From Halomonas sp. CUBES01 (GTDB lineage: Bacteria; Pseudomonadota; Gammaproteobacteria; Pseudomonadales; Halomonadaceae), in NCBI RefSeq assembly GCF_020991005.1, contig NZ_JAJLLW010000001.1:124001-188000 (forward strand): 64,000 nt of DNA, read 5' to 3'. The position numbers and the translations under genes are program-made. The notes beneath the pieces were generated by a model. That model did not search any database. It saw only the letters and a list, made by a program, of their open reading frames with translations, and had not been told where the DNA came from. Shown here piece by piece: positions 1 through 15,583 of this stretch (the first letter of the stretch is position 1; every line of letters starts with the position of its first letter).

Positions 1-168
1 AACGAGATTGTTGAGGGTGAACAGCAACGCCCGGGTATCGCCGTCATTGACCAGCCAGTAGCAGAGAGCCCCCGCCAGCAACATGGCGACCCCCACATGC
101 CAGCGACAGCCCAGCATCACCAGCAGGACACCGAGCGCGATGGCGCCCACTTCCAGGCCACCGATCAT
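1..168 (-). CDS. dctM: TRAP transporter large permease DctM, N-terminal part only
   Basis: This is the first 56 or so residues of a hydrophobic membrane protein that runs off the left edge of the window. The visible part begins MIGGLEVGAIALG and forms one to two membrane helices, as at the N-terminus of DctM-type large TRAP subunits. The start codon overlaps the stop of the small subunit gene in an ATGA arrangement, which fits translational coupling in a dctP-dctQ-dctM operon. DctM forms the sodium-driven channel that accepts substrate from the periplasmic binding protein. The identity rests mainly on position, because only a short piece is visible. Confidence 0.75.
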   Translation of the reverse strand, partial: MIGGLEVGAIALGVLLVMLGCRWHVGVAMLLAGALCYWLVNDGDTRALLFTLNNLV

Positions 169-671
169 GGACGCTCTCCTCCCGTTGCCGCTTCCCTGGC
201 GTCCCCGGTCAGTTGGAGAACGCTCTTATGGAGCGCGCAGACCCCGAGCAGAGCGAGGCCCGCCAGCATGGCGACCTGGGGGATCCATTGCGGAATGCCT
301 AGTTGCACGCTCTGGGCGCCGTAGTCGAGGCTGTCGACGGCCAATAGCGCCGTTCGCCATACCAGCAACGCGCTGACCAGCGCCAGCATAAGGTGCGAGA
401 TCGCCAGCAGGGCGCGATTGAGCCTGGCCGGGAAGAGCGTGGCAACGATATCGACCCGGATGTGTCGGTCGTTGACCTCGCACAGCGGCAGGAAACAGGC
501 CACGGTGACCGCGACCAGCATCTGCAGCAGCTCGATGTCCCCCGTAATGGGCGTGGAGAAGAGCCGGCGGCCGAGCATCGAGACCAGCGACATGCCGATC
601 GCCGTCATCAGCAGCACACCACCGACCATGGCCAGCGCCATTGCCGAGCGTTTCAATATGACACCCATCAT
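165..671 (-). CDS. dctQ: TRAP transporter small permease DctQ
   Basis: The protein has about 168 residues and four predicted membrane helices, the usual layout of the small TRAP subunit. The segment around TPITGDIELLQMLV matches the typical first DctQ loop. I start it at the ATGATG at 671/668, because a GGAGG lies five bases upstream; an upstream ATG at 701 has no ribosome site. It sits between dctP (51 bases upstream) and dctM (4-base overlap), so the three should be co-transcribed. With DctM it imports the solute captured by DctP, probably an aromatic or organic acid given the neighbouring catabolic genes. The substrate is inference. Confidence 0.88.
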   Translation of the reverse strand: MMGVILKRSAMALAMVGGVLLMTAIGMSLVSMLGRRLFSTPITGDIELLQMLVAVTVACFLPLCEVNDRHIRVDIVATLFPARLNRALLAISHLMLALVSALLVWRTALLAVDSLDYGAQSVQLGIPQWIPQVAMLAGLALLGVCALHKSVLQLTGDAREAATGGERP

Positions 672-722
672 AAAGGCCTCCGTGCGCCTTCGGCACGCCA
701 TTCGGTCAATCCGGTCATCGCG

Positions 723-1799
723 TCACTCCGCGCGTCGCAGGTCAGGGGCATGCTCGGCGACGACCGACGCGAGTTGCTCGACCAGTGCACCACGGTCAGT
801 ATCGTTGTCGCCGGCGGCGATCCAGTCCTCGACGATGCCACGGGTGGCGTCGCGCATATCGTCATAGGCGGCGTCATCAAGCGTTATCATCGTCTGGTCG
901 GGGTCGCCTTCCAGGCGTGTCTTGACCTTGTCGATCGCTTCGTCCCAGGCGCGGCCGAAGCGAACCGACAGCGTCTCTCCGCTCAGCGAATCGAGTACCT
1001 GACGCGCCTTCTCGGGTAGCCGGTCATAGCTTTGCTGGTTCATCAGCAGCGCCAGCACCGTCACCGTCGGCGTCGCCTGATCGGCCGCCGTCTCGATGTG
1101 GTAGCGGGTAACCTCGTCGAGTTTCGTCGGTGGCACGACTTCCCAGCCAGCCGATGCGCCATCGATAACGCCCTTGGCCAGTGTGTCGGCGATCTGGGCC
1201 GGTGGCATGCTCACCGCCGAGGCGCCGAGCATGTCGATCACGTTCGAGGCCATGCGCGTGGGCGCGCGCAGTCGCAGCCCCTGCATATCGGCGCGGTCGT
1301 GGACCGGGGTTTCCCGGGTATGGAAGACGCTGCCGCCATCGCTATGTACGGCGAGCACCTTGTAATCGGCAAAGTCCGCCGCGGCGGGCCCCTGGGTGAA
1401 TGCCCAGGCGATACGGCTGGCCTCGACGCCACCGGCAGGCAGCATGAAGGGCAGTTCCAGCGCCTCGCTGCGCGGGAAGCGACCTGCTGAATAACCCAGT
1501 GCGGTCCAGGCGACATCGACGACCCCGTTGCGCACCATGTCGGCGAGCTGCGCCGGGGTGCCGCCCAGTTGCATGGACGGGTATATCTGGCAGCGCAGCT
1601 CTCCCTCGGACTGGGTTTCGAGATCCTCGCACCAGGGCTCGATGACGTGCTGCTGGGCGTTGGACATCGCCGGCAGGAAATGCGCAATGCGCAGGGTGGT
1701 TGCCGCCGACGCCGCCTGGCTGGTCAAGCTGAGTACCAGACAGAGCCCCCACACCCGTTTCAAGCAGTGCATCATGGTTGCCGCGTTTTTCATTGTCAT
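723..1799 (-). CDS. dctP: TRAP transporter periplasmic substrate-binding protein DctP
   Basis: This 358-residue secreted protein has a signal peptide (hydrophobic core GLCLVLSLTSQAASA) followed by TLRIAHFLPAMS, the first strand of DctP-family binding proteins. The start at 1799 is chosen because an AGGAGG lies seven bases upstream; an in-frame extension to 1991 has no such site and overlaps the P450 fusion gene. It is the first gene of a dctPQM set and lies 64 bases downstream of the P450 fusion, reading the same way, so uptake and ring oxidation may share a transcript. The likely ligand is an aromatic carboxylate such as a phenylacetate derivative, by context only. Confidence 0.88.
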   Translation of the reverse strand: MTMKNAATMMHCLKRVWGLCLVLSLTSQAASAATTLRIAHFLPAMSNAQQHVIEPWCEDLETQSEGELRCQIYPSMQLGGTPAQLADMVRNGVVDVAWTALGYSAGRFPRSEALELPFMLPAGGVEASRIAWAFTQGPAAADFADYKVLAVHSDGGSVFHTRETPVHDRADMQGLRLRAPTRMASNVIDMLGASAVSMPPAQIADTLAKGVIDGASAGWEVVPPTKLDEVTRYHIETAADQATPTVTVLALLMNQQSYDRLPEKARQVLDSLSGETLSVRFGRAWDEAIDKVKTRLEGDPDQTMITLDDAAYDDMRDATRGIVEDWIAAGDNDTDRGALVEQLASVVAEHAPDLRRAE

Positions 1800-1863: not shown

Positions 1864-4800
1864 TCAGGCCGGCAGCTTTGCCTCGCTCGCCACCAGGGCC
1901 AGCACGCCCTCTGCCCAGTCCAGCGCCACGTCCGAGGCGGCAAGCGCGCCGCTGGCATCGTGGCGGCCGTACTCCCCGATTTGCGTTGCACCGCAGGCTA
2001 TCAAGGCCTCGGTGAGCCGTTCGCTGCCCCGGGAATAGGTCTTGGCGTAGCTGCTGTCGCCCAGCCCCAGGCTTGCAAAGCGAATCCCGGCGAGGTCTGG
2101 CGCGTCATCGCGCAGCGCTTCGTAGAATCCGCGTGCGCCGCTGGGCACCTCGCCGTCGCCGTAGGTCGAGCAGACGATGAGGTAGAACCGTTCCGGGTCG
2201 AGCGAAGGCGGGTCGGTGTCGGCGAGATCCGCCACGCTTACCGCGCAGCGCCCGTCGAGGGAGTACTCGAGTTCCTCGGCGACCAACTCGGCGTTGCCGG
2301 ACTCGGTACCGAACAGAATGCTGATCGTGAGGTCGCCCAGACGGTCGCCGCCGTCAGTGGTGCGCTGCGCGTCATATTCGACCACCAGCGACTCATCCCG
2401 CGCCGCCGCCAAAAGCGCTTCGAGCGTGGCCAGTTTGGTGCGTACCCGCCCCAGCGGGGGTTGCATGCGCTCCAGATGATCGATCCGCCGCCAGCCGTCG
2501 ATGTCGGTTGCTCCCGAGTGGGGGACGAGCCCATCGCGCTGGCAGCGCACCTCGCCGGCGGCGATATCGGCGCCGATCACGCCGGCAAGCGCCCGGGCGT
2601 CGGTGCGCTGGTCTGGGATCGTGCCCCGGGCGCCGCGCCGCCGCCAGCCGGCCAGATAGAGCCCGGCCTCGACGCGCCCGGTCTCGGAAGCTGCCGGCAG
2701 CTCGGACAGCGCGCTTGATATAGCGTCCGCCGGGTCGGGCACGAAGCCGATGGCGGTAATCACCGCGTCCACCGCCAGCGCGACGGTCTCTTCATGGTGG
2801 TAGAGCACGACACCCTCGACCCGGGTCTGCCCGTCGATGCGCTCGGGTACCGCCTCGAACCACCACTCGACCGTCATGCGTGGCGCTTCTTCGACCTCGA
2901 CCCTGCCCACGCCCGGCAGCGTACGCAGCGCGTCCAGCCGGGCGTCCTTGCCCTCCGGCGCGCTGTCAGGGTTGACACCGTGGAGGCGATGTTCGATGCC
3001 CGAAAAGCGGCTCAGCTCGCGGATCATCACCGGATCGAAGCGTGCCTGCTGTGCGCTTGAGCGACCGATGATATGAAGGGTGTCGATCTCACGGGTCAGG
3101 GCACCGTGCACGGCATCGTCGATGTCGCTGCCCTCGAGGTCGGCGGCGCGAATCGACAGCAGTCGCAGCACGTCGATGGCCACATTACCCTGCCCGATAA
3201 TCGCCACGTGTCGGCCTAGCCTCGGCGTTTCGGTCTCGTCCGGGTGGCCATTCAGCCGCCGGGTAATGCAGCCCGCGCCGTACACCCGGGCCAGGGCATC
3301 ACCAGGGATCTCCAGCCGACGATCCGCGTGTACGCCGGAGGCGAGCACCACCGCGTCGTAGCTAGCCCGCAGGTCATCGACGGTGACATGCTGGCCGATG
3401 GTGGTGTTGCCGATAAAGCGCACCTTGGGGGAGTCGAACAGGCGGTCGAACTGGCGCGCCACGGCCTTGGTGCCCTGGTGGTCGCCGGCGACGCCGTAGC
3501 GCAGCAGCCCATAGGGCACCGGAAGGCGGTCAAACAGGTCGATGTGGGCGCCGGGCATGCGGCGCTGGATTTCCTTGGCGGTGAAACAGCCCGCCGGCCC
3601 CGCCCCCACAATGGCCACATGCGGGGTCGCCTCGGATTCGGCGGCAGATCCCACCTGACCACGGACCGACATGGATACACCGCTGCCTTCGAGCGGACGC
3701 ACGTCGTGCCAGATCACCGGCAACGAGAGCATGCCGCGAAACACCCAGCCGCCGATGGTGGGGGCGCGGTCAGGATGCAGTTCAAGGCCATTCAGGTGAT
3801 TGAACAGCAGCGGCAGCGCCACATCGGCAATCTCCGCCCGCGCTGCCCGGGCACCCAGGCAGACATGGGTGCCCTTGCTGAAGGCCAGGTGTGGCTTGAC
3901 CTCGCGATGGATATCGAAGGCGTCCGGGCGATCCCAGATCGATTCATCGCGGTTGGCCGAGAGAATGCAGATGCCCAGCCGCGCCCCTTCCGGCAGCTCG
4001 ACGCCTGCCAGCACGGTGCGTTTCGTGGTCTGGCGCGAATAAAGCCCGATGGGCGCCACCCAGCGAATGGTTTCATCGAACACCGTCGGCCAGAGGCTGG
4101 GGTCGCGTTCCACCGCGCGGCGCTGGTCGGGGTGGGTCAGCATCGCCCAGGCGGCCACGCCCAGGGCGTCGCGTGGCTCGTTCAAGCCGCCGCCGATGCT
4201 CATCTTGATGTTGGCGCGAATCTTCTCCAGCGGCATCTGTTCTTCGGGCGAGGAGAGCAGCGATGAAATCAGGGAATGATCGCGGTGGTGGAGGTGCCAC
4301 GCGAGCATCTCGTCGAGGGCGACATCCACCTCGTCGAAGGAGCGCCTGCCCGCCGCCCAGACCTCCGGGTCGTCGCCGTAGTTGCCGGTGGCGTCGATCA
4401 GCGTCTGCGACCAGCGCTGCAAATCTTCGGCCGAGGCGTTATACAGCCCGAGCAGCGATTTCAGACATTCGGCCGCAAAGGGCGCCGCGAAATCCCAGAT
4501 CAGGTCCGCACCCGGCCCCTTGTCGATGAAGCGGGCCAGCTGCTCGCGGCCCTTGTCATGGAAGGTCTGCGTCCAGACGTTTTTGACCGCATTGGGCTTG
4601 AACACGGTCTGCCACTGGCGCCGCTCGCGGTAGTGTTCCGGGTCGTCGCGGCGCAGCATCGAGTGGCCCATGGCGCGGATCTGCAGCGAGTCCTTTTCAT
4701 TGGCAGAGTAGGTTGCCTGGTCGTGCTCGGTGGTGATCACGGCGTCGTAGCTGGTGATCAGGTAGCGGTTGACGCAGGGCACCCAGTGCACGCCACCCTC

Positions 4801-4902
4801 GCGGCGTAGCCGCTTGTAGATCGGGAAAGGATCCTGATAGAGCGTCTCGAGATCGACCCAGTCCGCCACGGGGGCGGGGCGCGCGTTGATTGGCTTGTTC
4901 AT
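1864..4902 (-). CDS. Cytochrome P450 - adrenodoxin-reductase-like - flavodoxin fusion protein
   Basis: One uninterrupted 1012-residue frame carries three redox modules. Residues 1-400 are a soluble P450: ExxR at 277-280 (DETIR) and the heme loop FSKGTHVCLG at 341-350, with Cys348 as iron ligand. Residues 425-790 resemble adrenodoxin/ferredoxin-NADP reductases: FAD site GAGPAG at 433-438, pyridine-nucleotide site GQGNVA at 570-575, and a GWRRRG segment at 752. Residues 855-1000 are a flavodoxin: FGTESGN at 864, STYGDGE at 912 and GLGDSSY at 946. Electrons should pass from NAD(P)H to FAD to FMN to heme within one chain. The I-helix at 236-246 (IGGGLNEPRDA) lacks the usual acid-threonine pair. 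A GGAG lies five bases before the ATG. The likely role is hydroxylation or O-demethylation of an aromatic acid that feeds the hpa pathway; the substrate is inferred. Confidence 0.9.
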   Translation of the reverse strand: MNKPINARPAPVADWVDLETLYQDPFPIYKRLRREGGVHWVPCVNRYLITSYDAVITTEHDQATYSANEKDSLQIRAMGHSMLRRDDPEHYRERRQWQTVFKPNAVKNVWTQTFHDKGREQLARFIDKGPGADLIWDFAAPFAAECLKSLLGLYNASAEDLQRWSQTLIDATGNYGDDPEVWAAGRRSFDEVDVALDEMLAWHLHHRDHSLISSLLSSPEEQMPLEKIRANIKMSIGGGLNEPRDALGVAAWAMLTHPDQRRAVERDPSLWPTVFDETIRWVAPIGLYSRQTTKRTVLAGVELPEGARLGICILSANRDESIWDRPDAFDIHREVKPHLAFSKGTHVCLGARAARAEIADVALPLLFNHLNGLELHPDRAPTIGGWVFRGMLSLPVIWHDVRPLEGSGVSMSVRGQVGSAAESEATPHVAIVGAGPAGCFTAKEIQRRMPGAHIDLFDRLPVPYGLLRYGVAGDHQGTKAVARQFDRLFDSPKVRFIGNTTIGQHVTVDDLRASYDAVVLASGVHADRRLEIPGDALARVYGAGCITRRLNGHPDETETPRLGRHVAIIGQGNVAIDVLRLLSIRAADLEGSDIDDAVHGALTREIDTLHIIGRSSAQQARFDPVMIRELSRFSGIEHRLHGVNPDSAPEGKDARLDALRTLPGVGRVEVEEAPRMTVEWWFEAVPERIDGQTRVEGVVLYHHEETVALAVDAVITAIGFVPDPADAISSALSELPAASETGRVEAGLYLAGWRRRGARGTIPDQRTDARALAGVIGADIAAGEVRCQRDGLVPHSGATDIDGWRRIDHLERMQPPLGRVRTKLATLEALLAAARDESLVVEYDAQRTTDGGDRLGDLTISILFGTESGNAELVAEELEYSLDGRCAVSVADLADTDPPSLDPERFYLIVCSTYGDGEVPSGARGFYEALRDDAPDLAGIRFASLGLGDSSYAKTYSRGSERLTEALIACGATQIGEYGRHDASGALAASDVALDWAEGVLALVASEAKLPA

Positions 4903-5150: not shown

Positions 5151-7028
5151 TCAGGCCATTAGGCGCTGGAAGAAGGCCGCCAGCCGGTCGACCTCGGCGA
5201 GCGGCAGCACGTCGGCGACGTACTGGTCGGGGCGCACCACCACGACCGCGCCTTCGCGGTCGATGCCACGCGTCTCGAAGATGTCTTCGTCAGGGGCCAC
5301 GCCGTAGACGTTTTCAAGGTCGATCAGCGCGAAGGGGCCTACCTCCGGGGTGAACACGTCGGGCACATCCTGGATCGCGACGTCTTCGTGACGCTGCTGG
5401 TAAATCACCTTGATGTCGAACCAGTCAACCCAGGCGCCGCCGGGCAGGTTCGCGTTGAGCGGCGAGTCGGCCGACTGGGTCAGCCACTCGGCAAGGCGCC
5501 GGGTGGCTGAATCGCCCGTCTGGGCGGCGGCGTCGGCAAACACGTAGAGGCGCCAGCGCCCGTCGGCCTGGGCCTGATGGCCCAGGTGCAGCGGGTTGCC
5601 ATCGCATACCCGCGAAACCATGGCCGACTTGAAGCGCTTGCCGACGGGAAAGCCGGTGGCACGCGCCTGGTGCGCGGTGTCGTGGGTGATCAGGGACGGC
5701 TCATATTCGGTCATGAAGCCTGCCGGAAACTCGATGGTGCGCGTGTAGAACGCCTCGAGCTCGCCGGGATCCTCGAACTCTTCGGGGCGTTTGGCCATCA
5801 TCGTCGACCACTCCTTGTCGAACGCGATCAGGTTCCTGGCCACCACCTGGCGCTCGGCGGAGTAGGTTGAGAGCAGGCGGGCCGTGCTGCAGCCGGACAG
5901 CACGTAGCCCAGCTTCCAGCCCAGGTTGAAGCCGTCCTGCATCGAGACGTTCATGCCCTGGCCTGCCTTGGCGCTATGGGTGTGGCAGGCATCGCCGGTG
6001 ATGAACACCCGTGGTAGCTGGCCGGACGCCGGGTGCTCGACGTCGTCAAAGCGATCGGTCAGACGGTGGCCCACCTCGTAGACGCTATGCCAGGCGACGT
6101 TGCGCACGTCGAGGGTGTAGGGCGCAAGAATCTCGTTGGCCTTGGCGATGATCTGCTCGATAGGCGTGTTGCGCACGGCGTTGCTGCCGTCGGCGGGCAC
6201 TTCGCCCAGGTCGACGTACATGCGGAACAGGTGCCCACCCTCGCGGGGAATCAGCAGGATGCTGCCACCGGCATGGGATTGGATGGCGCACTTGGTGCGG
6301 ATGTCGGGGAAGTCGGTGCGCGCGAGTACGTCCATCACCCCCCAGGCGTGGTTGGCCTGGTCGCCGGCCAGGGTACAGCCGATGGCACGGCGCACGCCGC
6401 TGCGTGCGCCGTCACAGCCCACCACGTACTTGGCACGCACGGTGCGCTGCTGCCCTTTCTCGGAGCCGGCCTCCATGCGCAGCGACACGCTCACCGGGTA
6501 GTCACCGTCGTCTGCGACCTCGAGGTCCTCGAACGCAATGCCGAAATCCGGTCGAATCCGCGCCGGGCCGTTGGACGCGGACTCGGCCAGATAGTCGAGC
6601 ACCCGCGCCTGGTTGACGATCAGGTGGGGAAACTCGCTGATGCCTGTGGGGTCATCGGGCGTTCGGGCGGTGCGCACTATGTGCTCGGGCCGGTCGGGAT
6701 CCGGCTTCCAGAACGCCATCTCGGTAATGCGGTAGGCCTCGGCCGTGATGCGGTCGGCAAAGCCGAACGCCTGGAAGGTTTCGACGCTGCGCGCCTGGAT
6801 ACCGTCGGCGTGGCCGATCTCGAGCCGCCCCGGGCGACGCTCGATGATGCGGGTCCGGAGGTGGGGAAACTGTGACAGCTGCGCCGCCATGATCATGCCG
6901 GCCGGGCCGGTGCCGACGATGAGCACATCCACCTCGTCGGGCAGCGTCTCGGGTCGGTCGAGCCCTTCGCCGCGCGGGGATTGAATGCGGGGGTCGCCTG
7001 ACACATAACCGTGATGGTGAAATTGCAT
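5151..7028 (-). CDS. FAD-dependent aromatic ring hydroxylase, 3-hydroxybenzoate 4-monooxygenase / phenol hydroxylase (MobA) family
   Basis: The 625-residue protein has the three hallmarks of class A flavin monooxygenases: the FAD-binding GTGPAG at residues 39-44, the DG motif GCDGARSG at 204-211 and the GD motif FITGDACHTH at 342-351. The last 170 or so residues fit the thioredoxin-like dimerisation domain of the phenol hydroxylase/MobA group, and the length matches that group rather than the 390-residue p-hydroxybenzoate hydroxylase. It would use NAD(P)H and O2 to put a hydroxyl ortho to an existing phenol. With a homoprotocatechuate pathway opposite, 3- or 4-hydroxyphenylacetate is the most economical substrate guess. 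A GAGGAA lies seven bases before the ATG. Confidence 0.88.
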   Translation of the reverse strand: MQFHHHGYVSGDPRIQSPRGEGLDRPETLPDEVDVLIVGTGPAGMIMAAQLSQFPHLRTRIIERRPGRLEIGHADGIQARSVETFQAFGFADRITAEAYRITEMAFWKPDPDRPEHIVRTARTPDDPTGISEFPHLIVNQARVLDYLAESASNGPARIRPDFGIAFEDLEVADDGDYPVSVSLRMEAGSEKGQQRTVRAKYVVGCDGARSGVRRAIGCTLAGDQANHAWGVMDVLARTDFPDIRTKCAIQSHAGGSILLIPREGGHLFRMYVDLGEVPADGSNAVRNTPIEQIIAKANEILAPYTLDVRNVAWHSVYEVGHRLTDRFDDVEHPASGQLPRVFITGDACHTHSAKAGQGMNVSMQDGFNLGWKLGYVLSGCSTARLLSTYSAERQVVARNLIAFDKEWSTMMAKRPEEFEDPGELEAFYTRTIEFPAGFMTEYEPSLITHDTAHQARATGFPVGKRFKSAMVSRVCDGNPLHLGHQAQADGRWRLYVFADAAAQTGDSATRRLAEWLTQSADSPLNANLPGGAWVDWFDIKVIYQQRHEDVAIQDVPDVFTPEVGPFALIDLENVYGVAPDEDIFETRGIDREGAVVVVRPDQYVADVLPLAEVDRLAAFFQRLMA

Positions 7029-7443
7029 AGTCTATTCCTCATTGAGCGTGACGGCCCCGGCTGGCCGTGCATCGCGCAGCGGCCTGGTCGTTCGACAGCG
7101 CAGCCGGGTGCCCTGACCCTTTTCATGCTGAACACTCGCCGACGCGGTGAGGATGTGTTTTACGCCCCCTTGATTGTACTTTTCATAAATATGCCCCCTA
7201 CCTTGGTCGGTATGCCGCCAAATAGCCTCGATTGCTCGTTAATCTATGAATGAGATAGTCGGGAAGCGTCCTTAAAGGCACTTTTTAGACGCATTTCCCG
7301 TCGCTGGATTGCGCATGCGATATCTGTCGAAATGATTGAATACGGTTGCTTGACACAGCATTATCGAACAGTCATTAATATATTAATAATATCGGGCTGG
7401 CCCCGGCCGTTTGCCACCCATGCAGGCTTTCAAGGAGAACGAC
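7029..7443. promoter_or_regulatory. Divergent promoter region between the flavin hydroxylase and hpaF
   Basis: This 415-base stretch has no gene and must drive transcription both ways. On the plus strand a perfect TTGACA lies at 7350-7355, followed about 17 bases later by AT-rich sequence containing a perfect 14-bp palindrome, ATTAATATATTAAT, at 7374-7387. The palindrome overlaps the expected -10 region, so a bound protein could repress or activate hpaF. The AraC-type regulator at 12168-13064 is an obvious candidate. No start site can be fixed by eye. Confidence 0.5.
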
Positions 7444-7830
7444 GTGCCCCATCTGCATATCGAATATTCACCCGGTCTCGCCCAGCGTGTCGACGTTCGT
7501 GAGGTCTGCCGGGCCGCCCATGGGGTGATGACGGCGTCCGCGCTCTTCCCGCTGGCCGGGATCCGTATACGCGCCTTTGCCGCCGATCATTGCATCGTGG
7601 CCGATGACCACCCCGACAACGACTTTCTGGCCATGACATTGAGCGTGGGCAGCGGGCGGTTCCAAAGCGATCTCCAGGCCGCCGGTGAGCAACTCTTCTC
7701 CGCCGTGCAGCAGATGCTTGCCGGCCCGCTATCCACCCCGCATTTCGCCCTGTCGCTGGAAATCCGCGAAATCGATGCCGCGCTGAGCTGGAAAGACACC
7801 CCGATCCATGCCCGGCTATCCAAACAGTGA
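7444..7830 (+). CDS. hpaF: 5-carboxymethyl-2-hydroxymuconate delta-isomerase
   Basis: A small 128-residue enzyme of the tautomerase-like CHMI family that isomerises 5-carboxymethyl-2-hydroxymuconate in the homoprotocatechuate pathway. After the start codon the protein reads PHLHIEYSP, the conserved N-terminus in which the proline exposed by removal of Met is the catalytic residue. The start is the GTG at 7444, because an AAGGAG sits six bases upstream; an ATG at 7411 precedes that site and would bury the proline. It is the first gene of the rightward hpa operon and is followed 28 bases later by hpaE. Confidence 0.9.
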   Translation: MPHLHIEYSPGLAQRVDVREVCRAAHGVMTASALFPLAGIRIRAFAADHCIVADDHPDNDFLAMTLSVGSGRFQSDLQAAGEQLFSAVQQMLAGPLSTPHFALSLEIREIDAALSWKDTPIHARLSKQ

Positions 7831-7858
7831 GCCCCATGCCCCTTCCGGAGGATTCTTG

Positions 7859-9367
7859 ATGAGCCAATTGAACGATAATATCGCCCGCGCGCAGGACTAC
7901 ATGAGACGGTTTCGCGACCGCGGAGTCTTGAACCACATCAACGGTGAGTCGCTGGCGGCCGATTCCGGCAAGACCTTCGAGACACTCTCGCCGGTGGATC
8001 TTGCCCCGCTGGCCAACGTGGCCTGCGGCGGTGCCAGCGATATTGACCGCGCCGTTCAGGCCGCAGAGAAAGCGTTCAAGACCTGGAGCAAGACACCGGG
8101 CAAGGAACGTCGCGCGATTCTGATCAAGGTGGCCGAGGCCATCGAGGCCCGCGCCGAGGAAATTGCCTTCACCGAGTGCATGGATACCGGCCAGTCGCTG
8201 CGCTTCATGTCCAAGGCAGCCATTCGCGGGGCGGCCAACTTCCGTTTCTTCGCCGACAAGGCACCCCAGGCCGAGGACGGTCAGGCACTGCGCAATGATA
8301 CCCAGATGAACGTGACCTCCCGGCGCCCGCTCGGGCCAATCGGCGTCATCACGCCCTGGAACACGCCGTTCATGCTGTCGACCTGGAAGATTGCCCCGGC
8401 GCTGGCCTCCGGCTGTACCGTGGTCCACAAGCCGGCCGAGTTCTCGCCGATGACCGCCAAGCTGCTGGTCGAGATCGCCGAGGAAGCCGGGCTGCCCAAG
8501 GGGGTGCTGAACCTGGTCAACGGCTTCGGCGAGGACGCCGGCAAGGCGCTGACCGAGCATCCGGGCATCAAGGCGGTCGCGTTTGTCGGTGAAAGCCGCA
8601 CCGGCCAGCTGATCATGGCTCAAGCCGCCCCGACCCTGAAGCGCTTTCACTTCGAGCTCGGCGGCAAAAACCCGGTCGTGGTCTTTGACGACGCCGACAT
8701 CGATCGCGCGGTCAACGCGGCCAGTTTCATGATCTACTCCCTCAACGGTGAGCGCTGCACCTCATCCTCCCGCCTGCTGGTGCAGGACACCATCTACGAA
8801 GAATTCACCCGCCGTGTGGCGGAAGTAGCCAACGGGGTGAAGGTCGGCCACCCGCTGGATCCCGACACCGTGGTCGGCCCGCTGATTCATCCCGAGCATG
8901 AAGAAAAGGTGCTGTCGTACTTCGACAAGGCGCGCGAGGAAGGCGCCACCGTCGCCGCCGGCGGTGAAAAGGTTGGCGACGCGGGCTGCTTCGTGCGCCC
9001 GACGCTGTTCACCAACGCCCGCAACGACATGACCATCGCCCAGGAAGAGATCTTCGGCCCAGTGCTGACCGCCATTCCCTTCAAGGATGAAGAAGAAGCC
9101 CTGCGCCTGGCCAACGATACCCAGTACGGCCTGGCTGCCTATTTGTGGACCAATGACCTCGATCGCGCCATGCGGCTGACCGACGAGCTGGAAGCCGGCA
9201 TGATCTGGGTCAACTCCGAGAACGTGCGCCACCTGCCTTCGCCGTTCGGCGGCGTCAAGGCGTCCGGTATCGGCCGCGACGGCGGTGACTGGTCGTTCGA
9301 TTTCTACATGGAGACGGTCAACGTCTCCTTCCCGCGCAAGGCCCATCCGGTGCCCAAACTCGGCTGA
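7859..9367 (+). CDS. hpaE: 5-carboxymethyl-2-hydroxymuconate semialdehyde dehydrogenase
   Basis: The 502-residue protein is an NAD-dependent aldehyde dehydrogenase. It carries the substrate-channel segment GVITPWNTP, the general-base motif FELGGKNP and the catalytic cysteine in GERCTSSSR. Length and sequence match HpaE, which oxidises the ring-cleavage product of homoprotocatechuate to 5-carboxymethyl-2-hydroxymuconate. I start it at 7859, where a GGAGG lies seven bases upstream, rather than at an in-frame ATG 51 bases earlier inside hpaF. Its place directly between hpaF and hpaD supports the assignment over other aldehyde dehydrogenases. Confidence 0.92.
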   Translation: MSQLNDNIARAQDYMRRFRDRGVLNHINGESLAADSGKTFETLSPVDLAPLANVACGGASDIDRAVQAAEKAFKTWSKTPGKERRAILIKVAEAIEARAEEIAFTECMDTGQSLRFMSKAAIRGAANFRFFADKAPQAEDGQALRNDTQMNVTSRRPLGPIGVITPWNTPFMLSTWKIAPALASGCTVVHKPAEFSPMTAKLLVEIAEEAGLPKGVLNLVNGFGEDAGKALTEHPGIKAVAFVGESRTGQLIMAQAAPTLKRFHFELGGKNPVVVFDDADIDRAVNAASFMIYSLNGERCTSSSRLLVQDTIYEEFTRRVAEVANGVKVGHPLDPDTVVGPLIHPEHEEKVLSYFDKAREEGATVAAGGEKVGDAGCFVRPTLFTNARNDMTIAQEEIFGPVLTAIPFKDEEEALRLANDTQYGLAAYLWTNDLDRAMRLTDELEAGMIWVNSENVRHLPSPFGGVKASGIGRDGGDWSFDFYMETVNVSFPRKAHPVPKLG

Positions 9368-9377
9368 TGCCATTTTC

Positions 9378-9400
9378 GCAGGGCGGATGCGCCGCCCTGC
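9378..9400 (+). other. Intercistronic hairpin between hpaE and hpaD
   Basis: A perfect nine-base-pair inverted repeat (GCAGGGCGG and its complement) closes a five-base loop in the 56-base gap between hpaE and hpaD. There is no U-run after it, so it is unlikely to be a full terminator. It may stabilise or partition the operon mRNA. Confidence 0.6.
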
Positions 9401-9423
9401 CTGTCGAACAAAGGAGACGTTTC

Positions 9424-10404
9424 ATGCCTATTCCAACGCCCAATCTCTACCCTCCGTTCAATATCATTCGACTGAGCCACGTTGTGTTTGGCGTGTCCGA
9501 CCTTGCCAAGAGCCGTCATTTCTACGTTGACACCCTGGGCCTGCAGGTCACCGATGAGGACGATCAGCGCATTTACCTGCGCGCCATGGAGGAGCGCGGC
9601 CACCACTGCATCGTGCTGGAGCAAAGCGCCAGCGCCACCGTGCAGTCGCTGTCGTTCAAGGTCTTCGACGAGCAGGAGCTCGACAAGGCGCACGACTGGT
9701 TCAAGGCGCAGGGGCATCCGGTGGAATGGGTCGAGCGGCCCTATCAGGGACGCACGCTGCGCACCACCGACTGCTTCGACGTGCCCATCGAGCTGTACTT
9801 CAAGATGGAGCGGCTGGCCCCGATTCATCAGCAGTACGCCCTCTACAGAGGCGTCAAGCCGTTGCGCATCGACCATTTCAACCTGTTCTCGCCCAACGTT
9901 GACGAGGCAGTCGCCTTCTACAACCGCCTCGGGTTCCGGGTCACCGAATACACCGAGGACGAGGAAAGCGGCAAGCTGTGGGCGGCCTGGACCCACCGCA
10001 AGGGCGGTGTACACGACATGGCCTTCACCAACGGCCGCGGCCCGCGCCTGCACCACACGGCATTCTGGGTACCCACGCCCCTGAACATCATCGACCTGTG
10101 CGACCTGATGGCCACCACCGGCTACGTCGATAACATCGAGCGCGGCCCGGGCCGTCACGGCATCTCCAACGCCTTCTTCCTGTACATCCTCGACCCGGAC
10201 GGGCACCGCATCGAGATCTACTGCTCGGACTACCAGACCGTCGACCCGGATCTGGAGGCGATCAAGTGGGACCTGAAGGATCCGCAGCGTCAAACGCTGT
10301 GGGGTGCCCCGGCACCGCGTTCCTGGTTCGAGCACGGTTCGCTGTTTGAAAATCTTGAGCCTGTGGATGCCGAGCTCAATGCCACGCCCATCATCGCGCC
10401 CTGA
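9424..10404 (+). CDS. hpaD: Homoprotocatechuate (3,4-dihydroxyphenylacetate) 2,3-dioxygenase, type I extradiol
   Basis: The 326-residue protein is built from repeated vicinal-oxygen-chelate modules. Metal ligands are visible as His in LRIDHFNLF and LHHTAFW and as Glu in HRIEIYCSDY near the end. This is the fold of the Fe or Mn homoprotocatechuate dioxygenases of Brevibacterium and Arthrobacter, not the unrelated LigB-type HpaD of enteric bacteria. It cleaves the catechol ring beside the hydroxyls to give 5-carboxymethyl-2-hydroxymuconate semialdehyde. The start at 9424 follows AAAGGAGA; a longer frame from 9367 is unsupported. Confidence 0.92.
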   Translation: MPIPTPNLYPPFNIIRLSHVVFGVSDLAKSRHFYVDTLGLQVTDEDDQRIYLRAMEERGHHCIVLEQSASATVQSLSFKVFDEQELDKAHDWFKAQGHPVEWVERPYQGRTLRTTDCFDVPIELYFKMERLAPIHQQYALYRGVKPLRIDHFNLFSPNVDEAVAFYNRLGFRVTEYTEDEESGKLWAAWTHRKGGVHDMAFTNGRGPRLHHTAFWVPTPLNIIDLCDLMATTGYVDNIERGPGRHGISNAFFLYILDPDGHRIEIYCSDYQTVDPDLEAIKWDLKDPQRQTLWGAPAPRSWFEHGSLFENLEPVDAELNATPIIAP

Positions 10405-10439
10405 ACCGGACGCGGATGCGTATCGCCCATGACTCAACA

Positions 10440-10459
10440 GGCCCGGGAAGGCTCGGGCC
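10440..10459 (+). other. Intercistronic hairpin between hpaD and hpaG
   Basis: GGCCCG at 10440-10445 pairs with CGGGCC at 10454-10459 around an eight-base loop, 15 bases before the hpaG start. It is one of several stem-loops between genes of this island and lacks a U-run. Confidence 0.45.
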
Positions 10460-10474
10460 GTCTGGAGACTGTCC

Positions 10475-11365
10475 ATGAGTAACCCCCTTCCTCCCCGTCT
10501 CGCGGCCTTTCGCGCCAGCGGTGCCGACCGCTTCGGCGTCGTCACCGAGGACGGTATCGTCGACCTGACCCCGGAATTCGGTGCCCGCTTCAAAGGGCTC
10601 AAGGAAGTGATCGAGGCTGGCGCCATCGACGAGCTGCTGAGCGTCGCCGCAGGCCGCCGCCCGAGCTACCGCGATGCCGACGTCACCTACCTGCTGCCGG
10701 TCGCCAATCCGGAAAAGCTGATCTGCGTCGGCGTCAACTTTCCGTCGCGCAACGAAGAGTACAAGGACGGCCAGGCCGCGCCGAGCAAGCCGTCGCTGTT
10801 CATTCGTTTTCCGCGCAGCTTCGTCGGCCACCGTGCGAACCTCGTGCGCCCGCCGGAAAGCGAGCAGCTCGATTACGAAGGCGAGGTGACCATCGTGATT
10901 GGCAAGGGCGGTCGCCGTATCCCGCGCGACAAGGCCTATGAACACATCGCCGCCCTGACGCTGTGCAACGAAGGCACCATCCGCGACTGGGTGCGCCACG
11001 CCAAGTTCAACGTCACCCAGGGCAAGAACTTCGACGCCACCGGTGCCATCGGCCCCTGGCTGGTGCCGTTCAAGCGCGCAGCGCAGCTGGATGACATCGA
11101 ACTGACCACTCGGGTCAACGGCGAGGTGCGTCAGAACGATCGCACCTCGCGGATGATGTTCGACTTCCGCTACATCGTGAATTACGTCTCGACCTTCACC
11201 ACCCTGGCGCCGGGGGATGTCATCGTCTGCGGTACACCCACCGGTGCCGGTGCGCGCTTCGACCCGCCCGTCTGGCTCAAGCCGGGGGATGTGATCGAGG
11301 TCGAGGCCGACGGCATCGGCACCCTCGTCAACGGCGTGGAGGACGAACAGCATGGCACTGACTGA
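10475..11365 (+). CDS. hpaG: Fumarylacetoacetate-hydrolase-family decarboxylase/isomerase of the homoprotocatechuate pathway
   Basis: The 296-residue protein contains one FAH catalytic domain from about residue 75 to the end, with metal-binding acids in the DYEGEVTIVIGK segment and the conserved GTPTGAG loop. In this pathway FAH proteins decarboxylate 5-oxopent-3-ene-1,2,5-tricarboxylate and isomerise the product 2-hydroxyhepta-2,4-dienedioate. The enteric HpaG has two FAH domains for the two steps, whereas only one is present here. Either the single domain does both or one step is spontaneous or encoded elsewhere. Its 3' end overlaps hpaH by 14 bases. Confidence 0.85.
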   Translation: MSNPLPPRLAAFRASGADRFGVVTEDGIVDLTPEFGARFKGLKEVIEAGAIDELLSVAAGRRPSYRDADVTYLLPVANPEKLICVGVNFPSRNEEYKDGQAAPSKPSLFIRFPRSFVGHRANLVRPPESEQLDYEGEVTIVIGKGGRRIPRDKAYEHIAALTLCNEGTIRDWVRHAKFNVTQGKNFDATGAIGPWLVPFKRAAQLDDIELTTRVNGEVRQNDRTSRMMFDFRYIVNYVSTFTTLAPGDVIVCGTPTGAGARFDPPVWLKPGDVIEVEADGIGTLVNGVEDEQHGTD

Positions 11366-12152
11366 GGATCAGATCGCGGCGGCGGCCGACGCCCTGCTCA
11401 CGGCGGAGGCGCGTCGCGAGCAGGTCGGCCTGCTCTCGAAAGCGTACCCGGACATGACCCTGGATGATGCCTACGCAATTCAGACCGCCCAGATGGCACG
11501 CAAGAAAGCCGATCACGAGATCATCGGTTGGAAGATCGGGCTGACCTCGAAGGTCATGCAGGACGCGCTGGGCATCGACACGCCGGACAGCGGCGTGCTC
11601 TATGACTACATGCGCTACGCCACCGATGCGGTGATCCCGCCGGGCCACTTCATCCAGCCCCGCATCGAGGCTGAGATCGCCTTTGTGATGAAGGCGCCGC
11701 TGGATGGCGACGTTACCCGCGACGACGTGCTGGCCGCCACCGACTACGTGGCGCCGGCCATCGAGATCCTGGATACCCGCATCGTGCGCAAGGACGAAGA
11801 GACCGGCCAGACGCGCGTGATTGTCGACACGGTCTCCGACAACGCCGCCAACGCCGGCATCGTGCTGGGGGCCGAGCGCCACGACCCGCAGGCGCTGGAC
11901 CTGCGCTGGGTCGGCTCGATCGTCAAGCGCAACGGCGAGGTGATGGCCACCGGCCTCGGCGCCGGGGTGCTGGATGACCCGGTCATCGGGCTTGTCTGGC
12001 TGGCCCGCCGCATGGCGACCTACGGTCAGCGCATCGAGGCCGGCCAGGTGATTCTCTCGGGGTCGTTCATCGGCCCCATCGAGTGCCCGTCCGGCAGCCG
12101 GATCGAGGCCGATTACGGACCGTTCGGGGCCGTGTCACTGACGTTCGACTAG
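11352..12152 (+). CDS. hpaH: 2-oxohept-3-ene-1,7-dioate (4-oxalocrotonate-type) hydratase
   Basis: The 266-residue protein belongs to the MhpD/HpaH hydratase group of the FAH superfamily. It has the typical GWKIGLTSKVMQ segment near residue 58 and the metal-site region QPRIEAEIAFV near 101. It adds water to 2-oxohept-3-ene-1,7-dioate to make 4-hydroxy-2-oxoheptane-1,7-dioate, the substrate of HpaI. The length matches the enteric enzyme. The start overlaps the end of hpaG, which indicates coupled translation. The gene ends 15 bases from the convergent AraC-type regulator. Confidence 0.9.
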   Translation: MALTEDQIAAAADALLTAEARREQVGLLSKAYPDMTLDDAYAIQTAQMARKKADHEIIGWKIGLTSKVMQDALGIDTPDSGVLYDYMRYATDAVIPPGHFIQPRIEAEIAFVMKAPLDGDVTRDDVLAATDYVAPAIEILDTRIVRKDEETGQTRVIVDTVSDNAANAGIVLGAERHDPQALDLRWVGSIVKRNGEVMATGLGAGVLDDPVIGLVWLARRMATYGQRIEAGQVILSGSFIGPIECPSGSRIEADYGPFGAVSLTFD

Positions 12153-12167: not shown

Positions 12168-13064
12168 TCAATGGCCAGGCTGGTCACGGCGATAACCCGA
12201 GGGAGTGGTGCCCGCATGACGTGCAAAGAAGCGACAGAAGTAACCGGGATCCTTGAACCCGAGCTGGTAGCCGATCTCGTTGACGCTCATGCGGGTAAAG
12301 GTCAGCAGACGGCGCGCTTCCTGCATCAGCCGGTCGTGAACCACCCGCTTGCTGGGCACTCCGGCGATGCGCCGACAGACGTTGTTGAGGCGGGCCTCGG
12401 TGACATTCAGGGTGCGCGCGTAGTCCAGCAGCGTCCAGTGCGCCTTGTAATGGGCCTCGATCTCCAGATTGAAGCGATGAAACAGCGCCAGCTCGTCGCG
12501 GCGCACGCTCTGGGCGGGCAGCGAGTTGGCCGAGAGCCGAAAGAGGCTCACGAAGATCAGCCGCGTCAGCGTGGTGAGCGCCAGCTCCCTGCCCGGGCGG
12601 TCGGCCTCGAACTCAAGACGAAGCTCGTCGAAGAGGCGTTCGACGCGGGCCACGTCGAGCCTTGCCTCGTCGCTGACGTGCCCCGTCGCCACGCAGACCG
12701 GGGCAACGCGCTGGGCGGCCCCCAGATCCGGGCTTTCCTCCAGCAGCGACCACACCAACTGCTGGCGCACCGTCAGCACGTGGCCGTCGCTGCCTTCCTC
12801 GGTAGTGAAGGAGTGGGGGACGGTCGGCGGGGTCAGAAAGAACATCGGCCCCTGCTGATGGAACGGCCGCTCGTCCAGATAGACACGCACCATGCCGCGC
12901 TTGACGTAGTGCACCTGAAAGAACCGGTCGTGATGATGAACCGGCATGTTGCGACCGTAAAAATCCGCCATGCGACCCAGCGCATCGTAATGCACCGTCG
13001 CATCGGCATACCGCTGGTCGTATTCCTGACCGATCGTGATGTTGGGAATGGGATCCAACGCCAT
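12168..13064 (-). CDS. hpaA: AraC/XylS-family regulator of the homoprotocatechuate genes
   Basis: The 298-residue protein has an N-terminal cupin-like sensor half (residues about 20-130, with HHHDRFFQVHYV) and a C-terminal double helix-turn-helix typical of AraC activators, ending in MSVNEIGYQLGFKDPGYFCRFF. Length and position match HpaA, the activator of 4-hydroxyphenylacetate catabolism. The start at 13064 follows AGGAG by seven bases. It is convergent with hpaH and divergent from hpaI across 209 bases, so it can control both flanking units. The effector is presumably a hydroxyphenylacetate, by analogy. Confidence 0.85.
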   Translation of the reverse strand: MALDPIPNITIGQEYDQRYADATVHYDALGRMADFYGRNMPVHHHDRFFQVHYVKRGMVRVYLDERPFHQQGPMFFLTPPTVPHSFTTEEGSDGHVLTVRQQLVWSLLEESPDLGAAQRVAPVCVATGHVSDEARLDVARVERLFDELRLEFEADRPGRELALTTLTRLIFVSLFRLSANSLPAQSVRRDELALFHRFNLEIEAHYKAHWTLLDYARTLNVTEARLNNVCRRIAGVPSKRVVHDRLMQEARRLLTFTRMSVNEIGYQLGFKDPGYFCRFFARHAGTTPSGYRRDQPGH

Positions 13065-13273
13065 GCTTGCGCTCCTGAACTCGTGCGGTGCGTCCGCCCG
13101 ACAAGCCTCTATAGTAAACACCGACGGGCCTCTTGCTCCATGGCATTGACGACCTGCGGTTCAGATCGCGCTGCTCCGCCCACTCTCGCCGACGTTTTGC
13201 ACGCTGCTGCACGGCCAGATCGACGCGGTATGGCCGATGTAATGCGACACGCCAACCTTTGAGGAGCCTCCTA
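13065..13273. promoter_or_regulatory. Divergent promoter region between hpaA and hpaI
   Basis: This 209-base spacer separates the AraC-type regulator from hpaI, which is transcribed the other way. The hpaI side ends with a clear GAGGAG ribosome site at 13261-13266. I see no strong sigma-70 consensus or palindrome. Promoter function is inferred from the divergent layout. Confidence 0.4.
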
Positions 13274-14077
13274 ATGGACATGCCCATCAATACCTTCAAG
13301 CAGGCCCTTGGCAACAAGGCCCCCCAGATCGGTCTCTGGCTCGGGCTGGCCAACGGCTACTGCGCCGAACTGGCCGCCAACGCCGATTTCGACTGGCTGC
13401 TGATCGACGGCGAACACGCCCCCAACGACCTGCGCAGCATCCTCGCCCAGCTGCAGGCCATCGCGCCCTATCCGGCTCAGCCGGTGGCGCGCCCTCCCGT
13501 CGGCGACGCCGCGACGCTCAAGCAGTACCTGGATCTCGGCGTGCAGACCCTGCTAGTGCCCATGGTCGACACCGCCGAGCAGGCCCGAGCGCTGGTACGT
13601 GCCACGCGCTACCCGCCCGATGGCATCCGCGGGGTGGGCAGTGCGCTGGCCCGCGCCTCGCGCTGGAATTCGATCCCCGACTACCTGGATCACGCCGACA
13701 GCCAAATCTGTCTGCTGGTACAGATCGAGACCCGGGAGGGCCTCGAGAATCTGGATGATATCGCCGCCGTCGAGGGCGTGGATGGCGTCTTCATCGGTCC
13801 GGCGGACCTCAGCGCCTCGCTCGGCCACCGAGGCAATCCCGGCCATGAAGACGTACAGCGGGCCATTGAGGACGGCATCGCCCGCATTCAGAAAGCCCAC
13901 AAGGCCGCCGGCATTCTCTCGGCCAACAAGACGCTGGCCAGGCGCTATCTCGAACTCGGCGCCACCTTCGTGGCCGTGGGCGTTGACACCAGCCTGCTGA
14001 TGAATTCGCTGAAAGCGCTCTCCAGCGAGTTCAAGGGCAGCGATGACGATGCGCCATCGGCTCCCTCGGTCTACTGA
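13274..14077 (+). CDS. hpaI: 4-hydroxy-2-oxoheptane-1,7-dioate aldolase
   Basis: The 267-residue protein is a class II aldolase of the HpcH/HpaI family. Metal-site and active-site segments are visible: [10 protein letters not shown] near residue 42, [12 protein letters not shown] near 146 and [14 protein letters not shown] near 172. It splits 4-hydroxy-2-oxoheptanedioate to pyruvate and succinate semialdehyde, the last carbon-chain step of homoprotocatechuate breakdown. The ATG at 13274 follows GAGGAG by seven bases. The next gene encodes the dehydrogenase needed for the semialdehyde product, which fits this assignment. Confidence 0.92.
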
Positions 14078-14131: not shown

Positions 14132-15583
14132 ATGCATCTCACCGATCCGCAACTTCTGCGCCAACAGGCCTACATCGACGGCCAGTGGCAGGACGCCGAC
14201 AGCGGCGACACCTTTGACGTGACCAACCCGGCCAATGGCCATACCGTCGCGACCGTGGCACGCGTGGGCATCGCCGAGACCCAGCGCGCCATCAGTGCCG
14301 CCGCAACGGCGCTTCCGGCCTGGCGCGAGATGACCGCCAAGGCCCGCTCGGCCATTCTGAAACGCTGGTTCGCGCTGATGCAGGAACACCGGGAAGACCT
14401 GGCGCGCCTGCTGAGCGCGGAACAGGGCAAGCCGCTTACCGAGAGCCGCGGCGAGGTCGATTACGGCGCCAGCTTCATCGAGTGGTTTGCCGAAGAAGGC
14501 AAGCGCGTGTACGGCGATGTGATTCCCAACGACAAGCCGGATCGGCGGCTGGTGGTAATCAAGCAGCCGGTCGGCGTGGTGGCCGCGATCACGCCGTGGA
14601 ACTTCCCCATTGCCATGATTACCCGCAAGGCTGGACCTGCGCTGGCCGCCGGCTGCACCATGGTACTCAAGCCCGCATCCGAGACGCCGCTGTCGGCGCT
14701 GGCGCTGGCGGAGCTTGCCGAGCGGGCAGGCGTGCCGGCTGGGGTGTTCAACGTGGTAGCCGGGCGTGCCGGTGAGATCGGCACGGAGCTAACCCACAAC
14801 GTGGCCATCCGCAAGCTTTCCTTTACCGGCTCCACCGACATCGGTCGCCAGCTGATGGAAGCGTGCGCCGGCACCATCAAGAAGGTCAGCATGGAGCTTG
14901 GCGGCAATGCGCCGTTCATCGTGTTCGATGACGCCGATCTGGACGCGGCGGTCGAGGGCGCGATCGCCTCGAAGTTTCGCAATAGCGGCCAGACCTGCGT
15001 GTGTACCAACCGCATTCTGGTGCACGACGCCGTGTACGACGCCTTCAGCGACAAGCTGGTTGCCGCCGTGAAGGCGCTCAGGGTCGCCTCCGCCGACGAC
15101 GAAGGCGCCCAGCAGGGCCCGTTGATCAATCCGAAGGCCGTGGCCAAGGTGCGCGCCCACATCGACAACGCCGTCGGGCATGGTGCGACCGTGCTCTGCG
15201 GCGGCCAGCTCCACGCGCTGGGCGGCAATTTCTTCGAGCCCACCGTGCTCGGCGACGTGACCCAGGCGATGGACGTGGCCGGTGAGGAAACCTTCGGCCC
15301 GCTCGCCCCGTTGTTTCGTTTCAGTACCGAGCAGCAGGCCATCGAGATGGCCAACGACACGCCCTTCGGCCTGGCCGCCTATATGTACACCCAGAACCTG
15401 GGGCGCAGCTGGCGCCTGGGGGAGGCGCTCGAATACGGCATGGTCGGCATCAACGAAGGCATCATCTCGACAGAAGTCGCGCCCTTCGGCGGGATCAAGG
15501 CCTCCGGCGTCGGCCGGGAAGGCTCCCGCTACGGTATCGAGGACTATCTCGAGATCAAGTACCTATGCATGGGGATCAAGTGA
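14132..15583 (+). CDS. gabD: Succinate-semialdehyde dehydrogenase
   Basis: The 483-residue aldehyde dehydrogenase has the GabD-type motifs ITPWNFPIAM, MELGGNAPFIVF and the catalytic Cys in NSGQTCVCTNR, and ends in the usual YLEIKYLCMG. It oxidises succinate semialdehyde with NAD(P) to succinate for the TCA cycle. Its place directly after hpaI, whose product is that aldehyde, closes the pathway within one operon. A CAGGAAAA precedes the ATG. A role with another aldehyde is possible, but context favours succinate semialdehyde. Confidence 0.9.
   Translation: MHLTDPQLLRQQAYIDGQWQDADSGDTFDVTNPANGHTVATVARVGIAETQRAISAAATALPAWREMTAKARSAILKRWFALMQEHREDLARLLSAEQGKPLTESRGEVDYGASFIEWFAEEGKRVYGDVIPNDKPDRRLVVIKQPVGVVAAITPWNFPIAMITRKAGPALAAGCTMVLKPASETPLSALALAELAERAGVPAGVFNVVAGRAGEIGTELTHNVAIRKLSFTGSTDIGRQLMEACAGTIKKVSMELGGNAPFIVFDDADLDAAVEGAIASKFRNSGQTCVCTNRILVHDAVYDAFSDKLVAAVKALRVASADDEGAQQGPLINPKAVAKVRAHIDNAVGHGATVLCGGQLHALGGNFFEPTVLGDVTQAMDVAGEETFGPLAPLFRFSTEQQAIEMANDTPFGLAAYMYTQNLGRSWRLGEALEYGMVGINEGIISTEVAPFGGIKASGVGREGSRYGIEDYLEIKYLCMGIK

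Follow-up and report, generated by a model that had tools for sequence, protein, structure and literature searches.

A 64,000-nucleotide stretch of the Halomonas sp. CUBES01 genome (contig NZ_JAJLLW010000001.1, positions 124,001 to 188,000; hereafter the window) carries a gene at 1864-4902 whose product joins a cytochrome P450, a flavin reductase and a flavodoxin in one polypeptide (Table 1). An earlier note on this DNA, made from the letters alone, had described a single open frame; the frame stands, with 1012 residues, and the strand, which that note omitted, is the minus strand. A GGAG lies five bases ahead of the ATG.

Architecture and conservation of the fusion

By Pfam, all three modules score above their cut-offs and follow one another in the order previously proposed: p450 at residues 273-358 (49.6 bits; cut-off 22.8), Pyr_redox_2 at 428-578 (50.3 bits; cut-off 26.1) and Flavodoxin_1 at 862-984 (69.8 bits; cut-off 25). 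The motifs, too, lie exactly where they had been placed (Cys348, GAGPAG at 433, GQGNVA at 570 and STYGDGE at 912). Conservation was assessed in an alignment of 62 sequences, that is, the window protein plus 61 others. Invariant in all 62 were C348, G433/G435/G438, G570/G572/N573/V574/A575 and Y914/G915/G917, as well as E277 and R280 of the ExxR motif, G613-R614, and E867-S868-G869 of the flavodoxin, while S912, T913 and D916 were near-invariant (59, 60 and 61 of 62, respectively). Since the reductase and flavodoxin cofactor residues are thus invariant, the electron chain is under strong selection. An AlphaFold2 model built on 62 sequences reached a mean predicted local distance difference test score (pLDDT) of 80.5 and a predicted template modelling score (pTM) of 0.58, with pLDDT below 50 in the two linkers, at both termini and at a few spots of the heme domain.

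Identity of the three domains

Compared with solved structures, residues 9-399 of the fusion matched 6g71_A at 522 bits. Foldseek likewise ranked this entry first for the model ('CYP1232A24 from Arthrobacter sp.'; 57% identity over 393 columns), followed by adrenodoxin reductase and FprA; the next P450s were SyoA and GcoA, in entries that bear syringol, guaiacol or vanillin. CYP1232A24 is colinear with the heme domain and about 57% identical to it. P450s are customarily placed in one family above 40% identity and in one subfamily above 55%; the heme domain passes the identity threshold for CYP1232, its formal name being a matter for the nomenclature committee. CYP1232A24 reportedly demethylates homovanillate and 3,4-dimethoxyphenylacetate to homoprotocatechuate and prefers a meta methoxy group. 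Because a solved heme relative is said to act on homovanillate, the chemistry of the fusion is less obscure than the earlier note implied. The I-helix of the fusion reads GGGLNEPRD (G237-G239 and N241-D245 in 62/62, L240 in 59/62), and SyoA has GGLQEPGH at the aligned position.

For the electron-transfer half, residues 401-1012 were used as the query. Residues from about 423 to 831 matched adrenodoxin reductase (1cjc) at 156 bits and FprA at 138.9 bits, and residues 861-1008 matched cindoxin (4oxx) at 91.8 bits, with the flavodoxin MioC as runner-up (52.6 bits). Of the 120 matches listed for the reductase domain, the first five look like fragments of fused family members. Most of its stand-alone kin share 41-48% identity with it, and one (P0216; 45%) is named cindoxin reductase. 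P0216 and the fusion have a GRS...FDPVMI stretch where adrenodoxin reductase and FprA have GRRGPLQ. Judged by its sequence, the fusion would contain both the flavin adenine dinucleotide (FAD) reductase, of the adrenodoxin reductase or cindoxin reductase kind, and the flavin mononucleotide (FMN) flavodoxin of a P450cin-type chain. As a side observation, the same kind of reductase is joined to an HtaA domain in P0152 and P0187.

A family of fused proteins and its transfer to Halomonadaceae

The fusion had looked like a one-off, which is not borne out. A protein database search, which scored the 8000 candidates sharing most words, gave 280 matches, of which the best 120 clusters were listed (P0001 being the window's own protein). 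These align across 96-100% of the query, and 119 of the 120 have all three Pfam domains, P0110 having no Pyr_redox_2 call. The family thus comprises over a hundred database proteins, mostly from Micrococcales among the named sources, under generic names such as 'cytochrome P450' or 'cytochrome P450/flavodoxin'.

A genome scan covering 84,980 species (one genome per species) gave 174 pattern matches, of which 167 were confirmed and the best 80 of these kept: 69 loci of the fused type and 11 with stand-alone P450s. In 63 of the 69 the three domains share one uninterrupted frame; of the others, L052 and L061 are cut off by a contig end, and the frame is broken in L040, L062, L066 and L067. A chance or misjoined reading frame was ruled out by the domain set shared in frame among these clusters and loci. 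In Halomonadaceae, the P450 was found at an E value of 1e-80 or better in 9 of 275 genomes, always in an open frame of 1019-1056 codons. In the family of Arthrobacter locus L072, 66 of 395 genomes have a CYP1232A24 relative: the best 16 (59-63% identity) all lie within frames of at least 1007 codons, and the other 50 (51-57%) in frames of 410-577 codons, except for G364 (1076) and G287 (813).

A first P450 tree had 87 rows and was midpoint-rooted, with some long branches flagged; for a second, 17 of these rows were dropped, 14 as near-duplicates and three as distant P450s, while P0241 and P0242 were added. In the 87-row tree, the eight Halomonadaceae and Terasakiispira rows form one clade (100/100) within the actinobacterial fused rows, joining 12 Brevibacterium and one Pseudoglutamicibacter at 100/98. 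According to this tree, Halomonadaceae received their copies by transfer from Micrococcales. With a G+C content of 67.3%, the fusion gene exceeds the 62.1% of window bases 23001-64000.

Stand-alone relatives and a change of electron supply

CYP1232A24 is nested within the fused rows in both free trees and clusters with the fused family, not with the ferredoxin-type stand-alone P450s. It groups at 100/99 with P0241 and P0242, two apparently stand-alone P450s (from the best 120 of 596 matches), its own fused or unfused state being a matter of inference. A tree in which the fused rows were constrained to one clade was not rejected (p-AU 0.53) and had a slightly better likelihood, a result that is compatible with a single fusion origin and goes no further.

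The stand-alone P450 loci are built differently. All 11 have a [2Fe-2S] ferredoxin motif behind the P450 and a reductase with a GxGQAG motif, the frame of the latter being short in L075 (264 codons) and L077 (334 codons); in one of them, L071, Pfam finds Fer2 as well as Pyr_redox_2 with Reductase_C. Of 34 plasmid records with a relative, four were also examined: three more distant P450s have the same ferredoxin and reductase pair as annotated neighbours, and the fourth, from Bradyrhizobium, has a [2Fe-2S] protein nearby. The P450 has therefore switched its electron supply, since its stand-alone relatives depend on a [2Fe-2S] ferredoxin and on a reductase of a different type. P0242 and P0137, a stand-alone reductase of the cindoxin reductase kind, have the same sources, on contigs that both measure 64361 bases; this match in source and size suggests an arrangement of unfused P450 and reductase. 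For further unfused relatives, 396 and 398 genomes of the two phyla were searched with P0242 as the query; this gave only known members (in G275, G000 and G124) and three distant P450s of 45-50% identity (a second copy in G275, G693 and G1385).

Two further arrangements were seen among these loci. Behind one stand-alone P450 lie two tandem [2Fe-2S] ferredoxin genes (L080:9241-9567 and 9886-10212). In Arthrobacter terricola, a distant P450 of 43% identity is encoded upstream of the fused one (L039:6655-7956 and 8535-11942), and the two may form a two-step demethylation pair.

Gene neighbourhood and co-occurrence with homoprotocatechuate genes

In the window, the fusion gene belongs to a minus-strand run that leads from a MobA-like hydroxylase through the fusion and the genes of a tripartite ATP-independent periplasmic (TRAP) transporter, the DctM subunit (PF06808) of which lies beyond the window edge, to a 447-residue product with no Pfam match, which may be a porin, and then an aldehyde dehydrogenase outside the window. 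Facing it on the plus strand is a run of HpaF, HpaE, HpaD, HpaG, HpaH, HpaI and succinate-semialdehyde dehydrogenase, which is the homoprotocatechuate meta-cleavage route. The fusion therefore neighbours an HpaD-E-F-G-H-I cluster, in which HpaD, HpaE and HpaI score over their cut-offs and HpaF is assigned by Pfam.

Table 1. Positions of the fusion gene, its domains and neighbouring genes in the window
Feature	Position	Strand	Extent or place	Evidence
P450-reductase-flavodoxin fusion gene	1864..4902	-	1012 residues	Open frame, three Pfam domains, full-length homologues
Heme (P450) domain	3703..4902	-	Residues 1-400; Cys348 ligand codon 3859-3861	6g71_A match, Foldseek
Linker 1	3637..3702	-	Residues 401-422	pLDDT <50 at 406-418; variable, gappy in alignment
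FAD/NAD(P)H reductase domain	2368..3636	-	Residues 423-845	Adrenodoxin reductase fold, cindoxin reductase-like
Linker 2	2338..2367	-	Residues 846-855	pLDDT <50 at 845-851
Flavodoxin (FMN) domain	1867..2337	-	Residues 856-1012	Cindoxin 4oxx match, Flavodoxin_1
MobA/phenol 2-monooxygenase-family flavoprotein hydroxylase	5151..7028	-	Directly upstream of fusion	2dkh (3-hydroxybenzoate hydroxylase) 649 bits, full length; NF006144 over cut-off
TRAP binding protein DctP	723..1799	-	Directly downstream of fusion; start picked by eye	NF037995 75.2 bits, cut-off 50
Probable TRAP small membrane subunit	165..701	-	Between DctP and DctM	No NCBIfam match
HpaF, 5-carboxymethyl-2-hydroxymuconate isomerase	7411..7830	+		PF02962 139.4 bits
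HpaE	7808..9367	+		TIGR02299 760.6 bits, over cut-off
HpaD, homoprotocatechuate 2,3-dioxygenase	9367..10404	+		TIGR02295 426.2 bits, over cut-off
HpaG-like FAA hydrolase	10475..11365	+		TIGR02303 173.4 bits, under cut-off 276.4
HpaH	11352..12152	+		TIGR02312 348.6 bits, just under cut-off 351.5
AraC-family regulator	12168..13121	-		PF12833, PF02311
HpaI aldolase	13133..14077	+	Likely to start further in	TIGR02311 410.4 bits, over cut-off
Succinate-semialdehyde dehydrogenase	14132..15583	+	Final pathway step	NF008415 829.9 bits, cut-off 828

Across Halomonadaceae, HpaD was found over its cut-off in eight of the nine genomes with the fusion versus 6 of the 266 without it (one-sided Fisher test, P value=3.6e-11, kinship ignored). 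The ninth, a Terasakiispira genome (G192), instead carries HpaD_Fe, a dioxygenase of another family, which is also near hpa genes and is separated from the P450 by about 7.5 kb (L133, G192:C1:170965-171816); a homoprotocatechuate dioxygenase is thus present in all nine. In G258, both HpaD and HpaD_Fe are over cut-off, the latter with one in-frame TAG, and P450 and pathway lie on one contig, about 23 kb apart. All nine genomes also have a MobA-like hydroxylase. HpaB was found neither in the window's own genome nor in any of the nine, in a search that was positive in 4 of 14 control genomes; the usual entry from 4-hydroxyphenylacetate is therefore missing.

In the flanks fetched around the loci, kin of HpaE (at least 48% identity) or HpaD (at least 35% identity) were found at 6 of 7 Halomonadaceae-type loci (kin of both at five), at 15 of 62 fused loci of Actinobacteria (both at 14) and at none of the 11 stand-alone loci.

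Other genes recur in these flanks or lie further along the window. A small HtaA-domain (heme-binding) protein is encoded within the flanks of the actinobacterial fused P450 at 30 of the 80 loci (for example, L031:6466-6963). At 64 of the 80 (for example, L077:6964-7926), and so at most actinobacterial loci, fused and stand-alone, the P450 has a LysR-type regulator gene close by. The cluster of this regulator is absent from the seven Halomonadaceae-type loci, where an AraC-type regulator is shared instead. At 18991-20701 of the window, a MoaF-like gene (PF10703 and PF17409) is followed by a short-chain dehydrogenase. The moaEF genes are part of a monoamine regulon, and the MoaF-like gene would fit phenethylamine-derived phenylacetates feeding the pathway.

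Proposed reaction and its alternatives

What the sequences establish is the type, order, conservation and kinship of the domains and the gene neighbourhood; from these we infer cofactor content, electron path and substrate. The fusion is likely to be a self-sufficient aryl O-demethylase of plant-derived methoxyphenylacetic acids, with homovanillate or 3-methoxyphenylacetate as the best candidates; this reading is based on the domains and their cofactor motifs, the kinship with CYP1232A24, SyoA and GcoA as the next P450s, the adjacent hpa cluster, the co-occurrence with HpaD, the HpaE or HpaD kin flanking fused loci, and the presence of the MobA-like hydroxylase in 9/9 and of HpaB in 0/9 genomes. 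Self-sufficiency, already put forward in the earlier note, would follow from the domain content.

In the proposed mechanism, which follows the known chemistry of such enzymes, NAD(P)H would reduce the FAD of the middle domain, from which electrons would pass singly to the FMN in the flavodoxin at the C-terminus. On its flexible linker the flavodoxin would shuttle between the middle and N-terminal domains, docking at the proximal face of the P450 and reducing the heme; in CYP116B a C-terminal [2Fe-2S] domain does the equivalent shuttling. The P450 would hydroxylate the methoxy carbon, and the resulting hemiacetal would break down, releasing formaldehyde and leaving the phenol. With homovanillate, the direct product would be homoprotocatechuate, supplying the entry that the cluster lacks, while 3-methoxyphenylacetate would yield 3-hydroxyphenylacetate, to be converted into homoprotocatechuate by the neighbouring MobA-like hydroxylase. 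HpaD-E-F-G-H-I and the semialdehyde dehydrogenase would then carry homoprotocatechuate into central metabolism.

The absence of HpaB from all nine genomes despite their homoprotocatechuate genes could also mean that the P450 hydroxylates the ring of 3- or 4-hydroxyphenylacetate or of phenylacetate, in place of the missing HpaBC. We regard this as unlikely, as a MobA-like ring hydroxylase is already encoded in the same genomes, adjacent to the fusion in the window, and the O-demethylases GcoA and SyoA are among the closest solved P450s. Alternatively, the P450 might act on a substrate that has no connection with homoprotocatechuate, such as a terpenoid (the case in P450cin), the cluster being adjacent by chance or through shared regulation. 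This would suit a reductase and flavodoxin of the P450cin kind, as well as the 47 of 62 actinobacterial fused loci without kin of HpaE or HpaD in the flanks fetched, several of which are cut by contig ends. Such a substrate seems improbable, however, given the strong co-occurrence in Halomonadaceae, which extends to G192 with HpaD_Fe close to its P450, and a heme domain nearest to CYP1232A24 and the aryl O-demethylases. A peroxygenase-type O-demethylase able to use H2O2 as oxidant, with the fused reductase mainly making or supplementing H2O2, would agree with a near-invariant I-helix aligned to that of SyoA, whose amide-acid pair has been connected with the use of peroxide, yet is very improbable in view of the reductase and flavodoxin cofactor residues invariant in 62/62.

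Besides those 47 loci and the truncated flanks, several observations weigh against the O-demethylase reading. Six Halomonadaceae genomes have HpaD and no fusion, and in G219 about 600 kb separate HpaD and the P450; for HpaD_Fe, the background consists of the three genomes searched. The difference in flanks between fused (15/62) and stand-alone loci (0/11) is non-significant (two-sided P value=0.11), and an HpaG-like hydrolase is present at 2 of the 11 stand-alone loci. At a full-model pTM of 0.58, the docking geometry between domains is a proposal. Finally, Arg614-Ser615 replaces the Arg-Arg of adrenodoxin reductase and FprA, which makes the preference for NADPH unsure; as a guess, the replacement could loosen it.

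Relation to known P450 systems

P450cin (class III) comprises three separate proteins, CYP176A1, cindoxin reductase CinB and cindoxin CinC, and its P450, which differs from that of the fusion, acts on 1,8-cineole. The reductase of the fusion is of the same kind and cindoxin is its nearest solved flavodoxin; the list of electron-transfer parts is therefore that of the P450cin system. Class III, however, has its reductase and flavodoxin as separate proteins, according to a review (PMC11173547), whereas the fusion is one open frame and not three polypeptides.

CYP116B (P450RhF; class VII) is likewise one chain that runs from heme to reductase to a small C-terminal shuttle, but it has an FMN reductase of the phthalate dioxygenase type and a [2Fe-2S] domain where the fusion has an FAD reductase of the adrenodoxin reductase fold and an FMN flavodoxin. 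Membership of this class was rejected, as the Pfam search at an E value of 0.01 gave five families, none of them a Fer2 or FNR-type domain. CYP102 (P450 BM3; class VIII) is likewise self-sufficient, with both FAD and FMN. Its order is heme, FMN, FAD, the last two in a CPR-like diflavin reductase with an FNR-type FAD part; the fusion has heme, FAD, FMN, with an FAD part of the adrenodoxin reductase type. Here, too, membership was rejected, as Pyr_redox_2 precedes Flavodoxin_1 and no FNR-type domain was found at the same E value. In XplA/XplB (class VI) a P450 is fused to a flavodoxin and an adrenodoxin reductase-type reductase is involved; the flavodoxin of XplA is N-terminal, its reductase separate, and its P450 family and chemistry are different. 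The fusion does not belong to this class either, its flavodoxin being C-terminal and its reductase within the chain. The idea that it represents XplA and XplB activities merged was likewise abandoned, as the parts are nearest to CYP1232A24, a cindoxin reductase-type reductase and cindoxin.

The module set and order are thus distinct from CYP102, CYP116B and XplA, as had been claimed. Less of the proposed oddity survives: the logic is the CYP116B topology with a flavodoxin replacing the [2Fe-2S] domain. Of the CYP116B enzymes, CYP116B234 is suggested to act on 2-hydroxyphenylacetate (PMC11889516).

The accessible text of a 2024 review that sorts P450 electron-transfer systems into classes I-X, among them III, VI (with a fused flavodoxin), VII and VIII, gives no triple fusion with reductase and flavodoxin (PMC11173547). 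The open-access papers listed, among which absence is weak evidence, included engineered fusions and other classes and no characterised P450-reductase-flavodoxin fusion, in line with the earlier note, which knew of no characterised enzyme of this type. Nor did those papers include a characterised case for CYP1232A24 or for P450s of CYP1232, papaverine or homovanillate, or anything on fusions of SyoA-type peroxygenases. The fusion is a real, well-conserved and apparently uncharacterised architecture of self-sufficient P450, with a probable catabolic role.

Taken as a whole, it is rather probable that these proteins represent a P450 redox class absent from the ten-class scheme, with heme, an adrenodoxin reductase-type FAD domain and an FMN flavodoxin all in one chain. 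This class would have arisen in Micrococcales when an aryl O-demethylase switched from a [2Fe-2S] ferredoxin to a cindoxin-type chain, would have passed through a stage of unfused P450, reductase and flavodoxin that is visible in the CYP1232A24-like relatives, and would have become fused and then crossed phyla to Halomonadaceae with the homoprotocatechuate pathway.

Natural P450 fusions serve as models for electron delivery to heme and as a source of one-piece biocatalysts, and this family offers a flavodoxin-driven chain with the shuttle at its far end. As relatives with a similar heme domain run on ferredoxin, how and why redox partners change becomes testable within one family. In salt-tolerant bacteria, methoxylated phenylacetates, which arise when lignin and catecholamines are broken down, probably enter metabolism by way of the fusion.

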